Assembly (NCBI GenBank): GCA_902589475.1
Contig: CACITD010000002.1
Location: 1-64,000 of the forward strand
Length of the DNA: 64,000 nucleotides
Direction: 5' to 3'
Source: an uncultured Alphaproteobacteria bacterium
GTDB lineage: Bacteria > Pseudomonadota > Alphaproteobacteria > Thalassobaculales > Thalassobaculaceae
In this document: positions 10,673 to 41,354 of the stretch, one piece after another
How the letters are laid out: each line of letters starts with the position of its first letter
Position numbering within the stretch: the stretch's first letter is position 1
Notes under the pieces: model-generated
What the model saw: only the letters and a program-made list of their open reading frames with translations
The model's database searches: none
Told to the model about the DNA's origin: nothing
Program-made: the position numbers and the translations under genes

Positions 10673-11539
10673 TTAAATCTCAAAACTCCAGCTTTCAGGT
10701 ATTATACGATAGGCTCCATCCTCAACCTTCACATATGAAAAACCGGGGAAGTGCAAGTGCATACCGGCTACCAAAATTCTGTCTTGAGAAACCATATCGA
10801 AAGTGCGCCGTCTAGCTAGTACCGCCGCTTCAGGATCTGTGTCAAAGGCCATGGTGACTTCTGGCTTTTTCATCTGAATATCGGGGACGTGGCATATATC
10901 TCCCCAGATCAAAAGTGAGTGCTTACCGGACTCTATAAGATACCCTGTGTGCCCAGGCGTATGGCCTGAAAGATCAATTGCGCGTACGCCTGGCAAAACT
11001 TCTCCCAGCGCATTTTTCCTTCTGTCCATGTATGGTGCTATTTGTTTTCTTGCCTCACGGAAATACCGTTCCCGCTGACTTTCATTGGCCGCCGACATGG
11101 CCGCATCATCGTGCCAATGGTCAACGTCACGTTCTGAAACAACAAGTTCAGCGTTTTCAAAAAATCTATTACCATCAACATCTAACAAACCATTTGAATG
11201 ATCAGGATGCATATGTGTTAAAAGTATAGAAGCAATTTCGTTGGGATTAATGTTAACTAAGTCGAGAAAATATGGCATTTTTCCGAGTGTTTTCCCCATC
11301 GTTTCGCCAGAACCAGTATCGATAATGGCAACCGTATCGGCACTTTGGATCAAATAACAATTGACTGATATTCTTGGAGGAGCAATTTGAAAACTCTCCT
11401 TCAAAATACGTTCAGCCTCATTTTCTTGGATATTTTGAAGAACACCATAAGGCGCATCTATAAAACCGTCCGATATGGCTGTGACAAGGATATCGCCAAT
11501 TTTACGATGATAAATTCCTGGCGTGTGTGTATAACTCAT
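10673..11539 (-). CDS. MBL-fold metallo-hydrolase
   Basis: ASILLTHMHPDHSNGLLD (HxHxDH), LSGHTPGHTGYLI, GDICHVPDIQ. Confidence 0.92.
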   Translation of the reverse strand: MSYTHTPGIYHRKIGDILVTAISDGFIDAPYGVLQNIQENEAERILKESFQIAPPRISVNCYLIQSADTVAIIDTGSGETMGKTLGKMPYFLDLVNINPNEIASILLTHMHPDHSNGLLDVDGNRFFENAELVVSERDVDHWHDDAAMSAANESQRERYFREARKQIAPYMDRRKNALGEVLPGVRAIDLSGHTPGHTGYLIESGKHSLLIWGDICHVPDIQMKKPEVTMAFDTDPEAAVLARRRTFDMVSQDRILVAGMHLHFPGFSYVKVEDGAYRIIPESWSFEI

Positions 11540-11660
11540 ATCTATGTGAAAACTTTCTGCTTTGGCACAAACGGAACGTAAAATGACTCATTCTAAAAAC
11601 AGATAGACTAACATACGGTTCAAATTTTTGTGTAATTAGTTTTATAGCATTTGAAATATC

Positions 11661-12347
11661 ATGGAACTGCCTTTCTTGAGTGACGAAGACCTTTTCGAAA
11701 ACTGCCCTCCTCAAACAGTGTGTTCAGTTTGTGGGTCGAATGAAATTCGACCCTTTATGCTTGTTGGTGATAAATATTATTGGACATGCAATGTTTGCAA
11801 AGCCCGTATTTTAAGTTGTAAACACTGGCTTTCAAAAGAAGAAGAATTCAAGTACTACCAAACTCACCAAAATATATCTAGCGACCCAGCTTACCAGGAG
11901 TTTGCAGCCCAACTTGCATTGCCTATTTTAGACAAGTTAGTTCCTAATAGCAGCGGTTTAGATTTTGGTTGCGGTCCTGACTCTGCACTAAGCGCGATTT
12001 TGAGACAACACGGTCATAATATGACTTTATACGATCCGTTTTTTTTTCCCGCTAAAAAATCTTTGAAAAAAACCTACGACTTTATTGTGTGTTCAGAAGC
12101 TGCGGAGCATTTTCATCAACCGGCAAAAGAGTTTAAAAAGTTTAATAGTTTGCTAAACGAAAACGGCTGGCTCGGTATAATGACTAATTTCCAAACCGAA
12201 AATGCTCGGTTCAAAAATTGGCATTATCGTCGTGACCCAACCCATGTTGTTTTCTACAGGAAGGAGACATTTGAAGTAATAGGAAAACAATTCAGATGGG
12301 CAGCCTATTTCCCATCGCGGAATGTAGTAATTTTTCAAAAGATATGA
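11661..12347 (+). CDS. Class I SAM-dependent methyltransferase with N-terminal zinc-ribbon-like motif
   Basis: CSVCGSNEI..YYWTCNVCKA (two CxxC); SGLDFGCGPDSALSAIL; FIVCSEAAEHFHQP. Confidence 0.8.
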   Translation: MELPFLSDEDLFENCPPQTVCSVCGSNEIRPFMLVGDKYYWTCNVCKARILSCKHWLSKEEEFKYYQTHQNISSDPAYQEFAAQLALPILDKLVPNSSGLDFGCGPDSALSAILRQHGHNMTLYDPFFFPAKKSLKKTYDFIVCSEAAEHFHQPAKEFKKFNSLLNENGWLGIMTNFQTENARFKNWHYRRDPTHVVFYRKETFEVIGKQFRWAAYFPSRNVVIFQKI

Positions 12348-12368
12348 CTAGCATTGTAGGAATTCTTC

Positions 12369-13616
12369 TCATTCAACAATTTCTGCTGTCTCTACAACTG
12401 CCTGGAACAGAACATTAGCTCCAGCCGTAGCCCACTCTGGGTGAATTTCTTCAGCCTCATTGTGAGACAAACCATCTACGCATGGGCACATAATCATAGC
12501 GGTCGGTGCGACGCGATTTATCCAACAAGCATCGTGCCCGGCGCCTGAAACAAGATCTCGATGTGAATATCCTAATTTGGTTGCGGCATCCCTCACACGC
12601 CCTACACAATCTTGGTCAAAAGTAACTGGATCAAAACCACCCACACTTTCGATCTCCATATCTAATCCAATTTTGTTTGCGATATCCTTGCCACCTTGCT
12701 CTAGTTGTTCCTTCATCGCTTCCAGGACACCTTTTTCCGGATGTCTAAAGTCTACGGTGAATATTGCTTTCCCAGGAATAATATTTCGTGAGTTCGGAAA
12801 TATTTCGCAGTGCCCAATTGCCCCAACAGCAAGGGGCGCATTAGCTAGGGCTATGTCGTTTACCAATTGCGTAATTTGCGCCATTCCTAGCCCGGCATTT
12901 ATTCTCATGGGCATAGGCGTAGATCCAGTGTGGCTCTCCTTGCCGGTAAGCGTAATCTGCAACCAACTTAACCCTTGTCCATGAGTAACCACTCCAATTT
13001 GTTTTTTTTCTTTCTCTAATATTGGTCCCTGTTCGATATGGAGTTCAAAAAAAGCATGCATTTTACGAGAACCAACTTCCTCGTCTCCCACCCAACCGAT
13101 GCGCTCCAACTCTTGGCCAAACGTCTTACCGGTCGCATCTTGACGTTCGTAGGCCCAGTCAAGCGTATGAACACCAGCAAAAACTCCAGACGCCACCATC
13201 GCAGGCGGGAAACGCGTCCCTTCCTCGTTTGTAAAATTTACGATAACAATTGGGCGCTTTGTTTTAACCCCTGTTTCATTTAACGTTCTTACGATTTCTA
13301 AACCCGCTAGGACCCCCAAAATACCATCATACTTCCCACCTGTTGGTTGAGTATCCAGATGACTCCCAACGTAAACAGGCAGAGCATCGGGGTCAGTACC
13401 TTGTCTTGTTGCAAACATACTCCCCATTTTATCTACGGAAACAGTCATATCAGCTTGTTCACACCAACGCTTAAATAAGTGGCGCCCCTCAGAGTCTTCG
13501 TCAGTTAACGCCTGTCTGTTATTGCCGCCAGCTACACCAGGCCCAATCTTTGCCATCTGCATAAGAGAGTCCCACAATCGATCACCATTTGTCCTTAAAT
13601 TATTTTTTTGATCCAC
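12369..13616 (-). CDS. M20-family Zn-dependent hydrolase (N-carbamoyl-L-amino acid hydrolase / allantoate amidohydrolase-like)
   Basis: VYVGSHLDTQPTGGKYDGILGVLAGLE; VNFTNEEGTRFPPAMVASGVFAG; FELHIEQGPILEKEKKQIGVV; SGAGHDACW. Confidence 0.9.
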   Translation of the reverse strand: MDQKNNLRTNGDRLWDSLMQMAKIGPGVAGGNNRQALTDEDSEGRHLFKRWCEQADMTVSVDKMGSMFATRQGTDPDALPVYVGSHLDTQPTGGKYDGILGVLAGLEIVRTLNETGVKTKRPIVIVNFTNEEGTRFPPAMVASGVFAGVHTLDWAYERQDATGKTFGQELERIGWVGDEEVGSRKMHAFFELHIEQGPILEKEKKQIGVVTHGQGLSWLQITLTGKESHTGSTPMPMRINAGLGMAQITQLVNDIALANAPLAVGAIGHCEIFPNSRNIIPGKAIFTVDFRHPEKGVLEAMKEQLEQGGKDIANKIGLDMEIESVGGFDPVTFDQDCVGRVRDAATKLGYSHRDLVSGAGHDACWINRVAPTAMIMCPCVDGLSHNEAEEIHPEWATAGANVLFQAVVETAEIVE

Positions 13617-13893
13617 GGCAACATCCCTCTGATTTTTCTCTGCGGGTTACACCCAACAACATCTACTAACTTTTAAATTATTCGCACTTTTGAGAAGATC
13701 CCTGTTTGTTTTAAAAAAATATACTAAATGCCCGATTTAATAACCAGAAATATTAAAAGACACCATCATCTCACTTTGTCACACCTCGTGAGGTAGAATT
13801 TTGGCTGCTGCTCTCTCTCCTCCCCTTTTCATTTGACTATCTACTAGAGAAATGCGTTATGTACGGGAAGATGCGAAAAATCTGCCCGACTAG

Positions 13894-13912
13894 TTTATCG
13901 TCAAACGATAAA
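13894..13912. repeat. Perfect 8-bp inverted repeat, 3-nt spacer (TTTATCGT-CAA-ACGATAAA)
   Basis: Read directly; lies ~87 nt upstream of the DEAD-box helicase start. Confidence 0.7.
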
Positions 13913-13998
13913 TGCTGTTTGGTCTAAATCCAAATTTATCTCGAAAATGACCAATCAAAAAAGATAAAAAAACGTCAAACCTTTTAGAAAGCCTGCTC

Positions 13999-15222
13999 GT
14001 GCACAAAACAACTTTTAATTGCCTCGGACTGACTAAGCGCATTGTACAGACCTTAAAAAAACAGCAATATGCTTTTCCTACACCAATACAAGAGAAAGCT
14101 ATCCCACTCCTTATTGAACGAAACGACCTTTTGGGAATTGCACAGACGGGCACGGGAAAAACAGCTGCATTTGGCCTTCCTATTCTCCATCACTTGAGCT
14201 TGGAAGAAAAGAGACCCGTGGCGAAATCTACCCGTGCTCTTATACTTGCACCTACACGCGAACTAGCAGTGCAAATAGGTGACGCATTAAAGGTGTACGG
14301 ACGAGACATTCCCTTAAGACACACCGTTGTTTTTGGAGGCGTAGGGCAAAATGCGCAAGTCACGGCCATGAGACGCGGCGTAGATATTTTAGTTGCGACC
14401 CCCGGACGTCTTTTGGATCTCTTTAATCAAAAACACATACGACTTGATTTTGTAAGTTATTTTGTCCTCGATGAAGCCGACAGAATGTTAGATATGGGAT
14501 TCATACACGACGTTCAGAAAATTACAGCTTTACTGCCCACTGAAAGGCAAACACTTTTATTTTCAGCCACAATGCCGCCAGGAGTAATCCGTTTGGCTAA
14601 TAAAATTCTGCATAACCCCAAAGAAGTGTCTGTTGCGCCAACTGCTACCCCTGTCAAAACGGTTGAACAAAAAGTTATATTCATAGATCGAGAGAAAAAA
14701 AGAAGTTGCCTTGTAAAACTTCTGCAAGAGGCGACGTTTGATCGAGTCATTGTATTCACAAGGACTAAGCACAAAGCAGGAAAACTTGCAGAACAACTTA
14801 CTAAGTCTGGAATAAAAAGCGATTCTCTACATGGAGATAAGTCACAGTCCGCTAGACAGAAGGCCCTAGATTTATTTAAGTCCGGAAAAGTTAGCGTGTT
14901 AGTCGCAACTGACATAGCATCCCGCGGAATAGACGTCGATGACGTGACACACGTGATAAATTATGAGCTGCCAATGGTACCTGAGGACTATGTCCACAGG
15001 ATCGGAAGAACAGCAAGAGCTGGCGCATCAGGTTCTGCGCTTTCATTATGTGATAAAAGCGAAATCCCTCATTTAACAAAAATTGAACAGCTCATAAAAA
15101 CAAAGATCGAAATTCTAGAAGGCGAAAGACCTCAATCGGACCCCCCCGAGAGATCCGGAAAAATTAGTAAAAAGAAAAGGAAGAAACGGAAAAAGTCTTT
15201 CAAAAAAATAGTTAACTTTTAA
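13999..15222 (+). CDS. DEAD-box RNA helicase (RhlE-like)
   Basis: GIAQTGTGKTAAFGLP, PTRELA, VLDEADRMLDMGF, SATMP, HRIGRTARAG; lysine-rich tail; GTG start. Confidence 0.95.
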   Translation: MHKTTFNCLGLTKRIVQTLKKQQYAFPTPIQEKAIPLLIERNDLLGIAQTGTGKTAAFGLPILHHLSLEEKRPVAKSTRALILAPTRELAVQIGDALKVYGRDIPLRHTVVFGGVGQNAQVTAMRRGVDILVATPGRLLDLFNQKHIRLDFVSYFVLDEADRMLDMGFIHDVQKITALLPTERQTLLFSATMPPGVIRLANKILHNPKEVSVAPTATPVKTVEQKVIFIDREKKRSCLVKLLQEATFDRVIVFTRTKHKAGKLAEQLTKSGIKSDSLHGDKSQSARQKALDLFKSGKVSVLVATDIASRGIDVDDVTHVINYELPMVPEDYVHRIGRTARAGASGSALSLCDKSEIPHLTKIEQLIKTKIEILEGERPQSDPPERSGKISKKKRKKRKKSFKKIVNF

Positions 15223-32530: not shown

Positions 32531-33430
32531 ATGGCGCGCTTATGTGAAGGAAGGGTAGCACTAGTCACGGGAGCCGCCCGCGGCGTAGGACGAGAACATG
32601 CTCTGGGTCTGGCTAAACACGGTGCTAAGGTCGTCGTAAACGATCTCGGAGCAGGGGTAGATGGCTCGGGGGCCGATACTACGCCGGCACAGGCGGTAGT
32701 TGACGAAATCAAAGCTCTAGGTGGCGAAGCCACTGTTAATGGCGATGATGTAAGTTCATGGACTGGTGCCAAAAACATGATTGATCAAACAATAGATGCC
32801 TTTGGTACTATCGATGTGGTTGTAAATAATGCTGGCATACTGCGCGATAGAATGCTTGTTAACATGACTGAAGATGAATGGGACGCTGTTATACAAGTAC
32901 ACCTTAAGGGAACATTTGCACCATCACGTCATGCAGCAGCATACTGGCGTCAATTATCTAAAGATAGGGGTGAAAAGGTCAATGCGAGAATAATAAATAC
33001 TAGCTCAACTTCAGGTCTATACGGCAACATAGGTCAAACAAATTATGGTGCAGCAAAGGCAGGCATCGCAGCTTTTACAATAATAGCCGCGAGAGAGTTG
33101 GCTCGTATAGGGGTTACGGTTAACGCAATTTCACCTACCGCTTATACTCGAATGACTGATAACCTTCGTGAATACACGGAAGAAGACATCGAACGGAGAG
33201 ATCCGCGATGGGTATCGCCTACTATCGTCTACTTATCTAGTGCCGAAGCCCACGATATCACGGGGCGCGTAATTCAAGCAGGAAATGGAAGAGTTGCAGT
33301 TTGCGAGGGATGGCGTCGTGGCGCGGAAATCGATCAAATTGAGGACGCAGAAGCGATAGGTCCAATGATACGCGATATGATTTCTAATGTGCGCAAGAAC
33401 TCGGGAATGGACGGACTAGAGTTAGACTAA
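32531..33430 (+). CDS. SDR family oxidoreductase (hydroxyacyl-CoA dehydrogenase-like)
   Basis: ALVTGAARGVGREHALGLAKHGAKVVVNDLGAGVDGSG; VVNNAGILRDRML; NYGAAKAGIAAFT. Confidence 0.93.
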   Translation: MARLCEGRVALVTGAARGVGREHALGLAKHGAKVVVNDLGAGVDGSGADTTPAQAVVDEIKALGGEATVNGDDVSSWTGAKNMIDQTIDAFGTIDVVVNNAGILRDRMLVNMTEDEWDAVIQVHLKGTFAPSRHAAAYWRQLSKDRGEKVNARIINTSSTSGLYGNIGQTNYGAAKAGIAAFTIIAARELARIGVTVNAISPTAYTRMTDNLREYTEEDIERRDPRWVSPTIVYLSSAEAHDITGRVIQAGNGRVAVCEGWRRGAEIDQIEDAEAIGPMIRDMISNVRKNSGMDGLELD

Positions 33431-33474: not shown

Positions 33475-35769
33475 TCAGGCTCGAGATGCCGAAATAGCGC
33501 GCCATATGCTCTGACTAGTCAACGGCATATCTAAATGTATAATTTTTAAAGGCGATAGCGCGTTCAAAACTGCATGAACAATAGTCTGAGGTGCAGCAAT
33601 GCAACCTGCTTGCCCAACGCCTTTGACGCCTAAAACATTAGCCTCTGTTGGAGCTCCCTCCAGCGTTGCCTCAAAATTAGGCAACATTGCTGCACGCGGA
33701 AGCGTGTAATCCATTAGTGAGCCAGAAAGTAATTGACCCGTATTTTCATCAAATGACACGAATTCCATGAGAGCCTGACCTATCCCCTGCGCGACGCCTC
33801 CATGCAGTTGTCCCTCGGTGAGAACTGGGTTTACAAGAGAGCCGTAGTCGTCAACCATTATGTATTTTATTAAAGTCACAGATCCAGTTTCTGGGTCAAT
33901 TTCAACTTCTGCCGCATGACAACCATTAGGGAAAGTAAAAGGAGCATTTTCTCTTTTAGTAAAAGTATCCAGGCCCATCCCCTCTAAATGAGGAGCAATC
34001 CTATTATCTCTCGCAGCAATTGTTACTTCCTTAAGTGTTACAGACCGATTTCCAGAACCAGACGTAAATGAGCCATTTTTAAAAGATAACTCATCGATTT
34101 CTGCCTGCAATAGCACCGCTGCAACACCCTTTGCCTTACCAATCACCTCTTCCACTGCAAGTATCATTGTAGCTGCACCCATGTGCATTGAACGGGCACC
34201 ACCATGTCCAGACCCAAGCCGAACTTCAAAAGTATTCGCTTGGATGTAGTCAAAAAGATCAGCCTCCACACCCAAACGTTCTGATACTAAATCGATATAG
34301 GTCGTCTCATGTCCCTGGCCATTTGACTCCGTACCGACCCGCAGCTCTATCCTCCCACTTTCAGCAAAACGGATTTCTGCCCCCTCCACGGGAGAACCTC
34401 TTGAGGTTTCTAAAAAGCAACCAAAACCTATTCCTCTCAAAAATCCTCTTTCTCGCGACGCTTCTCGGCGTTTAAAAAAACCTCTATAGTCAATATAATT
34501 AGAAGCTCTTTCAATATTTTCTTTGAACTTGCCAGAGTCAATTTGTAACCCAAAGGCAGTATTATGCGGCAGGGTTGAAATAATGTTTTTCAACCTCAGC
34601 TCAACAGGATCAAAGTTAAATTGAGAGGCAGCGATATCAATAAGTCTTTCAATTATAAAATTCGCTTCCGGCTTCCCTGCACCCCGATACGCATCAACTG
34701 GTGTTGTATTTGTAAAAACTCCTTTAGAGCTCATAAAAACGTATGGAATATTGTAAACCCCTCCCATTGCGGTGGAGGCTGCGTTAGTTGAGGCGTTAGG
34801 CCCGCCAGCCGAGAGATACGCCCCCATATTAGCTGTTAAATCCGCCTGCAATGCAATAAAGTTTCCGTCTTTATCTAAGGCTAACTTAGCGTCAGTTGTT
34901 ATATCTCTGCCATGAAGTGCTGACGAGTTATCTTCTGACCGCTCAGCAACCCATTTTATCGGTCGTCCGAGTTTTTTTGACGCCCACAAAAGAAGTACCC
35001 ACTCGGGAAAGAGGAAATTTTTCAGTCCAAATCCACCACCAATATCAGGAGCCGAAACCTGTATCTTCTCTGGTGGAACGTTAAATACATCGTAGGCCAG
35101 CTGATCGCGAATGGCATGAACACCTTGAGCTGTGCAAGACAAATGCATTGTATCAGTTTTAGCATCATAGAAACTTAACCCTGCACGCGGTTCCAACGGA
35201 GCAGCCATCACTCGATTATTTTTTATCTCTAATTCCGCAACATAATGGGCGTCAGTTATCGCTTTCTTAACCTCGTCTTTTTCACCTTTGGCAAATCTAT
35301 ATGCAATATTATCGGGCGCAGTCTCCCATATACTTTGTGAGCCTGGCCTTAACGCATCCATAACCTCTACCACTGCGGGAATGGGGTCATAATCTATTTG
35401 AATTAAGTCCACCGCAGTGCAAGCGATCTCATTTGATTCCGCCACAACAAACACCACTGGGTCACCTACGTGCCTTACACGGCCAACTGCGAGAGCCAAA
35501 CGTTTCGTTGAAACAATGGGAAGAATAGCAGGGAACTGAGTTGTACATGGTAGTGGACCAATTAAGTCAGTCTCTAAATCTGCTCCAGTGAACACCGCAA
35601 CGACACCGTCTAGTTTAATTGCTTCCTCAACATTTATGCTTTTAATATAAGCATGACCATGCGGTGACCTTACGACCTTAGCGTAAGCCTGTTGATCCAA
35701 ATTGGAATTAGCTACGAAACTACCACCACCCGTTAAAAATCTTGAATCTTCCCTTCTTCGTGCTGACAT
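33475..35769 (-). CDS. Xanthine dehydrogenase/CO dehydrogenase family molybdopterin-binding (large) subunit
   Basis: RRREDSRFLTGGGSFV; QGVHAIRDQLA; DIGGGFGLKNFLFPEWVLLLWASKKLGRPIKWVAERSED; VDAYRGAGKPEANF; GVKGVGQAGCIAAPQTIVHAV. Confidence 0.92.
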   Translation of the reverse strand: MSARRREDSRFLTGGGSFVANSNLDQQAYAKVVRSPHGHAYIKSINVEEAIKLDGVVAVFTGADLETDLIGPLPCTTQFPAILPIVSTKRLALAVGRVRHVGDPVVFVVAESNEIACTAVDLIQIDYDPIPAVVEVMDALRPGSQSIWETAPDNIAYRFAKGEKDEVKKAITDAHYVAELEIKNNRVMAAPLEPRAGLSFYDAKTDTMHLSCTAQGVHAIRDQLAYDVFNVPPEKIQVSAPDIGGGFGLKNFLFPEWVLLLWASKKLGRPIKWVAERSEDNSSALHGRDITTDAKLALDKDGNFIALQADLTANMGAYLSAGGPNASTNAASTAMGGVYNIPYVFMSSKGVFTNTTPVDAYRGAGKPEANFIIERLIDIAASQFNFDPVELRLKNIISTLPHNTAFGLQIDSGKFKENIERASNYIDYRGFFKRREASRERGFLRGIGFGCFLETSRGSPVEGAEIRFAESGRIELRVGTESNGQGHETTYIDLVSERLGVEADLFDYIQANTFEVRLGSGHGGARSMHMGAATMILAVEEVIGKAKGVAAVLLQAEIDELSFKNGSFTSGSGNRSVTLKEVTIAARDNRIAPHLEGMGLDTFTKRENAPFTFPNGCHAAEVEIDPETGSVTLIKYIMVDDYGSLVNPVLTEGQLHGGVAQGIGQALMEFVSFDENTGQLLSGSLMDYTLPRAAMLPNFEATLEGAPTEANVLGVKGVGQAGCIAAPQTIVHAVLNALSPLKIIHLDMPLTSQSIWRAISASRA

Positions 35770-35952
35770 ATAAAGGGGTTCTCCTTTGACATAAGCTACG
35801 CCGCCAAGATTATAAACCTTTTAGACAACTATCAATCCGCATTTTTTATGGCGAGGGAACCTCCAATTTATTCTTGGATTTTATGGAAAGGGCTTGCAAA
35901 CTTTTTGCTTGCTTCAAAAATTCAATAGCAGGTGTGACAAGAGTATATTTTA

Positions 35953-36138
35953 TTAGTACCGCTCTTTGACTTTTAAAACTTGGCGCCCGCGATACATGCC
36001 TGTCTTTAAGTCAATGTGGTGTGGCCTGTGTAGTTCTCCCGTATCGGGGTTCTCTACATAAGCGTCTGATTTTATTGCATCATGTGCGCGTCGCATATTC
36101 CTCTTGGATGGAGTTGTTTTCCTTTTTGGCACAGCCAT
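35953..36138 (-). CDS. rpmF: 50S ribosomal protein L32
   Basis: [55 protein letters not shown]. Confidence 0.97.
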
Positions 36139-36291
36139 TTCAAGATACCTCGCAGACGTGTTTCTAAAACAAGTCCGTATTAGTGGATACGAGAGTTTAA
36201 CGCAAGAAAAAATTCGCCATCCTGTGGGGAGTTTAACAATTTCTTAATGTCCAAAACATACGGTGCACAGCTGTACTAACCTTCAAAGCTT

Positions 36292-40001: not shown

Positions 40002-40149
40002 TTTTACACCTACTTGTTTAAGCTATCAAAAGAGCAAACTAAAACTATATTGCTTATATCAAATAAAAACTTTGCACTTACTCCTATGCCTAAGTCATTA
40101 TTAACTCGCATATCTTTAACACGTTTTGAGCGGATCGCCTGTAAGAAGA

Positions 40150-40755
40150 ATGAAGAATACTATTTTTTTAATTCGGCATGGTCAGACGACTTGGAATAGG
40201 GCTGGTCGCCTTCAAGGTCAAGCAGATTCTCCGCTAACTTTGTTGGGAACCCAACAAGTCGAAGCAATCGGCAAAAAGCTAAAACAAATAATAGAGACCA
40301 AAAAACACTGCTTTTGGTCTAGTCCTCTTGGCAGGACGAAGCAGACAACATCCATAATTTGCGATCAGATTAACTTTAATTATGACGACGTGGTATTTGA
40401 TGAAAGGTTAGTCGAGATAACTCTCGGCGATCGCGATGGTTACAAAAGTTGGAAAGCGCTGTTTGAAGATTTTCCTGAAGATATGGCCCGACGTGAAAAA
40501 GACCCTTGGAATTACTGTCACCCTAATGGGGAGAGTAGCCAGATGGTACTAGAAAGAGTCCAACCTTTCATAGAAAAAATAGTTAACTTAGAAGGAATTC
40601 ACGTAGTAGTTACCCATGGTGTTGTGAGCAAAATAATCCGTGGCATATATCTCAATCTGTCGCCCGAAGAAATATTTAATTTGGATAGACCTCAGGATGC
40701 TTTTCACAGACTACAAAATGGCGCCGTAGAAAAAATTGAGGTATCGTTAGGTTGA
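40150..40755 (+). CDS. Histidine phosphatase family protein (copy 1)
   Basis: MKNTIFLIRHGQTTWNRAGRLQGQADSPLT; ORF track starts at 40126 but the conserved start is 40150. Confidence 0.88.
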   Translation: MKNTIFLIRHGQTTWNRAGRLQGQADSPLTLLGTQQVEAIGKKLKQIIETKKHCFWSSPLGRTKQTTSIICDQINFNYDDVVFDERLVEITLGDRDGYKSWKALFEDFPEDMARREKDPWNYCHPNGESSQMVLERVQPFIEKIVNLEGIHVVVTHGVVSKIIRGIYLNLSPEEIFNLDRPQDAFHRLQNGAVEKIEVSLG

Positions 40756-41354
40756 AACATTTAGGACCAATATATCTAATAAGACATGGCGAAACGGTGT
40801 GGAATCGTGCCTCCCGCCTGCAAGGACATAAAGATACCCCTCTTACGATGAAAGGCGTAAAACAAGCCCAATCCCTAGGCTTTGCACTAAAGGGCGTTTT
40901 GAAAAATAAAACGCCAGGTTTTTTTTACTCAAGTCCCATAGGGAGAGCCAAACAAACGGCAGCTATCATTTCAGATATCATAGACTTCGATATAGAGAGA
41001 ATAGAGTATAAACCCTCTTTAAAAGAGATTACCTTCGGTGATTGGGACGGCTTAAACATGCAAGAGATATTGGCCCAATATAAAACAAGTTGGGAAAAGC
41101 GAAAGACCGATAAATGGAATACTTCCCCTCCTAATGGCGAGAGTTTTCAAGAAGCTAAAAAACGCGTTACACGCTTACTGGATGAAATCGCTATTCAACA
41201 GGATGTCGTTATCGTTGCCCATGGGTCCCTTAATAAAGTTATTAGAGGGTGTTGGTGCAATCTTTCAGAAGCCGAAACACTCTCTTTGGATGAACCGCAG
41301 GACGGATTTTATTGTCTCGCCAATGAGAATAGAGAATATTTTGTATCGGTTTAG
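40752..41354 (+). CDS. Histidine phosphatase family protein (copy 2; TTG start overlapping stop of copy 1)
   Basis: YLIRHGETVWNRASRLQGHKDTPLT; ITFGDWDGLN; VIVAHGSLNKVIRG. Confidence 0.88.
   Translation: MKHLGPIYLIRHGETVWNRASRLQGHKDTPLTMKGVKQAQSLGFALKGVLKNKTPGFFYSSPIGRAKQTAAIISDIIDFDIERIEYKPSLKEITFGDWDGLNMQEILAQYKTSWEKRKTDKWNTSPPNGESFQEAKKRVTRLLDEIAIQQDVVIVAHGSLNKVIRGCWCNLSEAETLSLDEPQDGFYCLANENREYFVSV

Follow-up and report, generated by a model that had tools for sequence, protein, structure and literature searches.

In XO-family hydroxylases, the glutamate of the GxGE motif is considered indispensable as the base. It accepts a proton from Mo-OH in XO enzymes (PMC3624778), and in GAOR2 of Sulfolobus tokodaii the corresponding residue, Glu672, was called the conserved catalytic glutamate by its authors, equivalent to Glu869 of DgAOR and to bovine Glu1261 (PMC4726530). 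The same study reported that Arg336 lines the GAOR2 pocket, and that the separate L subunits of the Sulfolobus GAOR2 and GAOR3 enzymes use one common M/S pair (PMC4726530). The consequence of replacing the glutamate with glutamine has been described for an engineered variant of mouse AOX1, E1265Q, which retained 60% of its Moco and 83% of its Fe, yet had undetectable activity with any substrate tried (PMC2671166); a plain exchange of Glu for Gln therefore abolishes the standard reaction but leaves the site occupied.

Results

The window, a stretch of 64,000 nucleotides from an uncultured alphaproteobacterium, encodes on its reverse strand (33475–35769) a 764 aa orphan large (molybdopterin-binding) subunit of an XO-family Mo-hydroxylase, assigned from Pfam, NCBIfam and an AF2 model. 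All three XO-family large-subunit domains (Ald_Xan_dh_C, MoCoBD_1 and MoCoBD_2) exceed the Pfam cut-offs, and the model (pLDDT 89.7) has 8uem as its best PDB match (Foldseek, TM 0.92), so that domains and structure together identify the large-subunit fold of the family. The protein falls below the NCBIfam cut-off of every equivalog by a wide margin, the best being glyceraldDH_alpha (glyceraldehyde dehydrogenase alpha, NF041018; 550.8 bits against a curated cut-off of 790). It does not conform to form I CoxL, as AYRGAGK stands in place of the copper-site signature AYxCSFR and TIGR02416 scores 449 bits against a cut-off of 991, nor does it fit form II CoxL, the AYRGAGR signature of which is replaced by AYRGAGK in all Gln-type sequences. 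The protein belongs to an alphaproteobacterial subfamily of form-II-like (AYRGAGR-type) large subunits that is monophyletic.

The original prediction was that this protein reads GVGQ instead of GVGE at the position of the family's active-site base, and both parts proved correct. Bases 33610–33612 are TTG on the forward strand and a sense CAA codon on the reverse strand, which encodes Gln720 inside LGVKGVGQAGCIAAPQTIVHAV, in the context KGVGQAG. At residue level, Gln720 aligns to the GxGE glutamate of 8uem (KGIGES), 1t3q (KGMGES), 1n5w (KGVGES), 7dqx (KGLGEI) and 4zoh (KGIGEA; Glu672 of GAOR2), as well as to the glutamate of 1ffu (KGVAES). Glutamine is absent from this position in all six solved relatives displayed in the alignment.

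The orthologue alignment proposed as a check on that prediction revealed that glutamine is fixed in one clade, being present in 33 of 33 orthologues from 33 genomes and six alphaproteobacterial families (f1, f67, f68, f76, f81 and f171). The general-base glutamate that marks the catalytic XO-family hydroxylases is missing from every member, and both CAA and CAG are used to encode its replacement. Within the same order, half of the genomes (18 of 36) carry an orthologue of at least 53% identity, always with glutamine; the class and phylum samples contributed families f67, f68, f76, f81 and f171, again with glutamine throughout. Because these class and phylum scans scored the top two candidates per genome, the prevalence of the Gln type is a lower bound. 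Over 50 further homologues keep glutamate, among them three paralogues from the same genome (41, 38 and 29% identical), and all of the nearest homologues outside the clade, at most 46% identical, are of the Glu type. None of the best matches read from outside the Alphaproteobacteria was of the Gln type, and the best match in a plasmid search, from Azospirillum thermophilum (45% identical), had glutamate.

In a PMSF tree of 60 sequences, the Gln-type proteins occupy one side of a single branch (support 100/100), and every bootstrap tree (100%) shows a single Glu-to-Gln change; among the well-placed Glu-type sequences, L072 and L073 are the closest. The general-base glutamate was replaced once by glutamine, which then became fixed, in this alphaproteobacterial subfamily, and the change is not of recent date. 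Values of dN/dS (NG86) between close Gln-type pairs were 0.06–0.16, and those of two Glu-type pairs were 0.02 and 0.15, from which it follows that the Gln-type gene is maintained by selection; strong purifying selection acts on the Gln-type proteins. Separately, two homologues from two species of one genus (G766:C1:1777831-1780161 and G768:C1:1081390-1083720) each contain one in-frame TAG, for which a shared pseudogene is one possible cause.

The Moco-binding loops GGGFG, GQGHxT and GQxHGGxxQGIG are invariant or nearly so within the Gln clade, and conservation of the cofactor-motif columns (0.943) is at least equal to that of the Glu type (0.887). Five residues, K366, F452, A525, Q555 and Q720, are fixed in every Gln-type sequence read, the Glu-type equivalents being R, Y, S (27 of 28), E and E, respectively. 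Where these lie relative to the pocket is judged by alignment to published structures. Lys366 (34672–34674, reverse strand, as are the residues that follow; positions calculated by counting from the start codon at 35769) is the final residue of AYRGAGK, arginine in AYRGAGR, and aligns with the GAOR2 pocket residue Arg336. Phe452 (34414–34416), a tyrosine in Glu-type homologues, is six residues before the position of the GAOR2 pocket residue Phe417. The loop His522-Gly-Gly-Ala525 (34195–34206) corresponds to Thr-x-Gly-Ser in the Glu type; Gly524 aligns with the GAOR2 pocket residue Gly483, and Ala525, which comes immediately after it, converts GSRS to GARS. Gln555 (34105–34107) is a second fixed Glu-to-Gln replacement, located outside the pocket motifs at a position occupied by glutamate in every Glu-type homologue compared.

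His522 is invariant among the aligned Gln-type members. Threonine is usual at this position elsewhere, and L072, L073 and one paralogue are the only other sequences with histidine. Trp257 is present in all Gln-type members but one (L140). At the site of the lost glutamate, no new acid that would exactly replace it has become fixed. Most members have acquired an acid at position 481, which is glutamine in two others and histidine in one. Arg457 was dropped as a clade marker on account of ambiguous alignment. As the linked substitutions all sit on one branch of the tree, their linkage represents a package rather than independent coevolution.

Flanks of up to 9 kb on each side of the Gln-type genes (shorter on short contigs) contained no homologue of coxM or coxS, with the exception of L138. 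At this locus, in a large genome, the Gln-type gene is convergent with a complete coxS/coxM/coxL-like operon (11246–14732, reverse strand) that is distantly related and has an L gene of its own. Nor were coxM or coxS found near the nearest Glu-type orphans. Pfam detected no 2Fe-2S or FAD domain fused to the Gln720 protein, which also has no neighbouring S or M genes. In the complete genomes G028 (3 contigs) and G101 (1 contig), about 285 and 275 kb, respectively, separate the Gln-type gene from the nearest 2Fe-2S gene. As a positive control, coxS-coxL-coxM clusters with a Glu-type L were detected elsewhere in three Gln-type genomes (G028, G011 and G101). The window's own genome, which is 59% complete, has one visible S gene and one visible M gene, both in an XDH-like operon. 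The original prediction had held that all other family hallmarks are present, and this part is not borne out: AYRGAGR reads AYRGAGK, GSRS reads GARS, and the S/M subunit genes are absent beside the large subunit.

Directly upstream of the Mo-hydroxylase gene is rpmF (ribosomal protein L32; 35953–36138, reverse strand), identified by eye from its translation, which lies between this gene and that of the propionyl-CoA carboxylase alpha subunit and is kept in relatives. As rpmF is the only gene recognised in the gap at 35770–36291, no small subunit is concealed there. Orphan status was rejected as an explanation of the glutamine, because orphan paralogues (L002 and L003) and the nearest Glu-type orphans retain glutamate. 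Besides the Gln720 gene, the window's own genome has two orphan large subunits of the Glu type, L054 (G000:C27) and L055 (G000:C14), without S/M neighbours, and orphan L genes appear to be common in these Alphaproteobacteria.

An amidase gene and an SDR gene recur near several loci, but both belong to common families and gene order is kept only within the nearest genera; the gene neighbourhood gives no hint of a substrate. The neighbouring SDR (32531–33430, forward strand) is 87–99% identical across two genera, compared with about 63% for the Mo-hydroxylase gene. Elsewhere in the window, a tandem pair of histidine-phosphatase-like genes with the RHG motif (40126–41354, forward strand) is probably a duplication. 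In genus g12, two single-contig genomes of 1.5 Mb (G015 and G023) have no homologue, other members being 4.7–5.6 Mb, a pattern that may reflect genome reduction or odd placement.

Discussion

A clade in which the catalytic glutamate was replaced once, and its replacement then kept under selection, represents a natural experiment on the need for the base. That the protein has been kept intact despite the Glu-to-Gln change suggests a different chemistry or another job. Of the two outcomes originally envisaged, a functional shift or inactivation, the shift is the better fit to the purifying selection and linked pocket changes, and simple inactivation and decay is the poorer one. Because Gln-type proteins have neither the signature of form II nor the catalytic residue, we caution against annotating them as CO or xanthine dehydrogenases. 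Literature searches found no natural Glu-to-Gln variant, and the AYRGAGK signature occurs in no paper of one open-access library searched, although absence from that library is not proof of novelty.

The explanation we prefer, which we consider to have an even chance of being right, is that the Gln720 clade consists of remodelled orphan subunits that contain Moco, borrow their S/M partners in trans and have an altered active-site chemistry. The Gln-type protein would still bind Moco, and by analogy with GAOR2 and GAOR3 its L subunit may form a complex in trans with 2Fe-2S/FAD subunits that another operon encodes. Substrate turnover would proceed without the need for residue 720 to deprotonate Mo-OH. 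Another pocket residue could serve as the base, His522 being the best candidate by sequence and the acid at position 481 being available in most, but not all, members; alternatively, the chemistry may require no base at position 720. The retention of the cofactor loops, the changes in the pocket around the swap and the signature of selection favour an active protein of altered chemistry over a pseudoenzyme or a non-redox enzyme. We put forward more tentatively, at somewhat under an even chance, the specific proposal of a natural enzyme of the Mo-hydroxylase fold that performs Moco chemistry without the glutamate, through a relocated base or a different chemistry, and with electron-transfer subunits supplied in trans.

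The main rival is a maintained pseudoenzyme that keeps the fold and Moco without turnover. Such a protein could be a partner in regulation or assembly, could store Moco, or could act as a decoy towards shared S/M subunits. This reading holds its place because the same mutation abolishes the activity of mouse AOX1 while leaving Moco bound (PMC2671166), making a loss of activity plausible in the Gln clade, and a gene without electron-transfer subunits of its own is also consistent with it. We nevertheless regard it as rather unlikely, since around the Mo site the pocket residues stay conserved among proteins of about 50% identity, and the fixed, clade-specific replacements in the pocket do not resemble drift.

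A non-redox Moco enzyme catalysing hydration or isomerisation would need neither the base nor the S/M subunits, in keeping with the lack of own S/M genes at every Gln-type locus examined. However, glutamate is retained by the nearest Glu-type homologues even though they too are orphans, so the orphan state alone does not predict the swap. We know of no accepted precedent for such an enzyme in the XO family, and consider this explanation improbable. Finally, although CAA and GAA differ by one base, an error in sequencing or assembly, or a pseudogene decaying in a single strain, can be dismissed with near certainty, because the same residue occurs in 33 distinct genomes via both CAA and CAG, in open frames without stops and with dN/dS well below 1.

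Compared with described systems, form II CoxL (AYRGAGR type, putative CO dehydrogenase) is the closest large group by sequence, with Glu-type homologues about 38–46% identical to the Gln720 protein and of equal length and domain content; the Gln720 protein differs in having AYRGAGK, and in lacking the catalytic glutamate and a coxS/coxM operon. Form I CO dehydrogenase CoxL/CutL (8uem, 1n5w and 1ffu) includes the best structural match in the PDB, but its AYxCSFR copper-site motif and catalytic glutamate are both missing from the Gln720 protein. The L subunits of GAOR2 and GAOR3 of S. tokodaii (4zoh; PMC4726530) share the fold and the YRGAG motif, and their genes can sit apart from the M/S genes used, as the Gln-type L gene does from S/M genes. 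Identity to GAOR2 is about 31%, and Glu672, Arg336 and Ser484 of that enzyme are replaced by Gln720, Lys366 and Ala525. The engineered E1265Q variant of mouse AOX1 (PMC2671166) has the identical Glu-to-Gln replacement at the homologous site and also retains Moco. In that inactive enzyme, however, the replacement is a lone change in a pocket adapted to glutamate, whereas in the Gln clade the pocket has changed too, and selection has preserved the gene.
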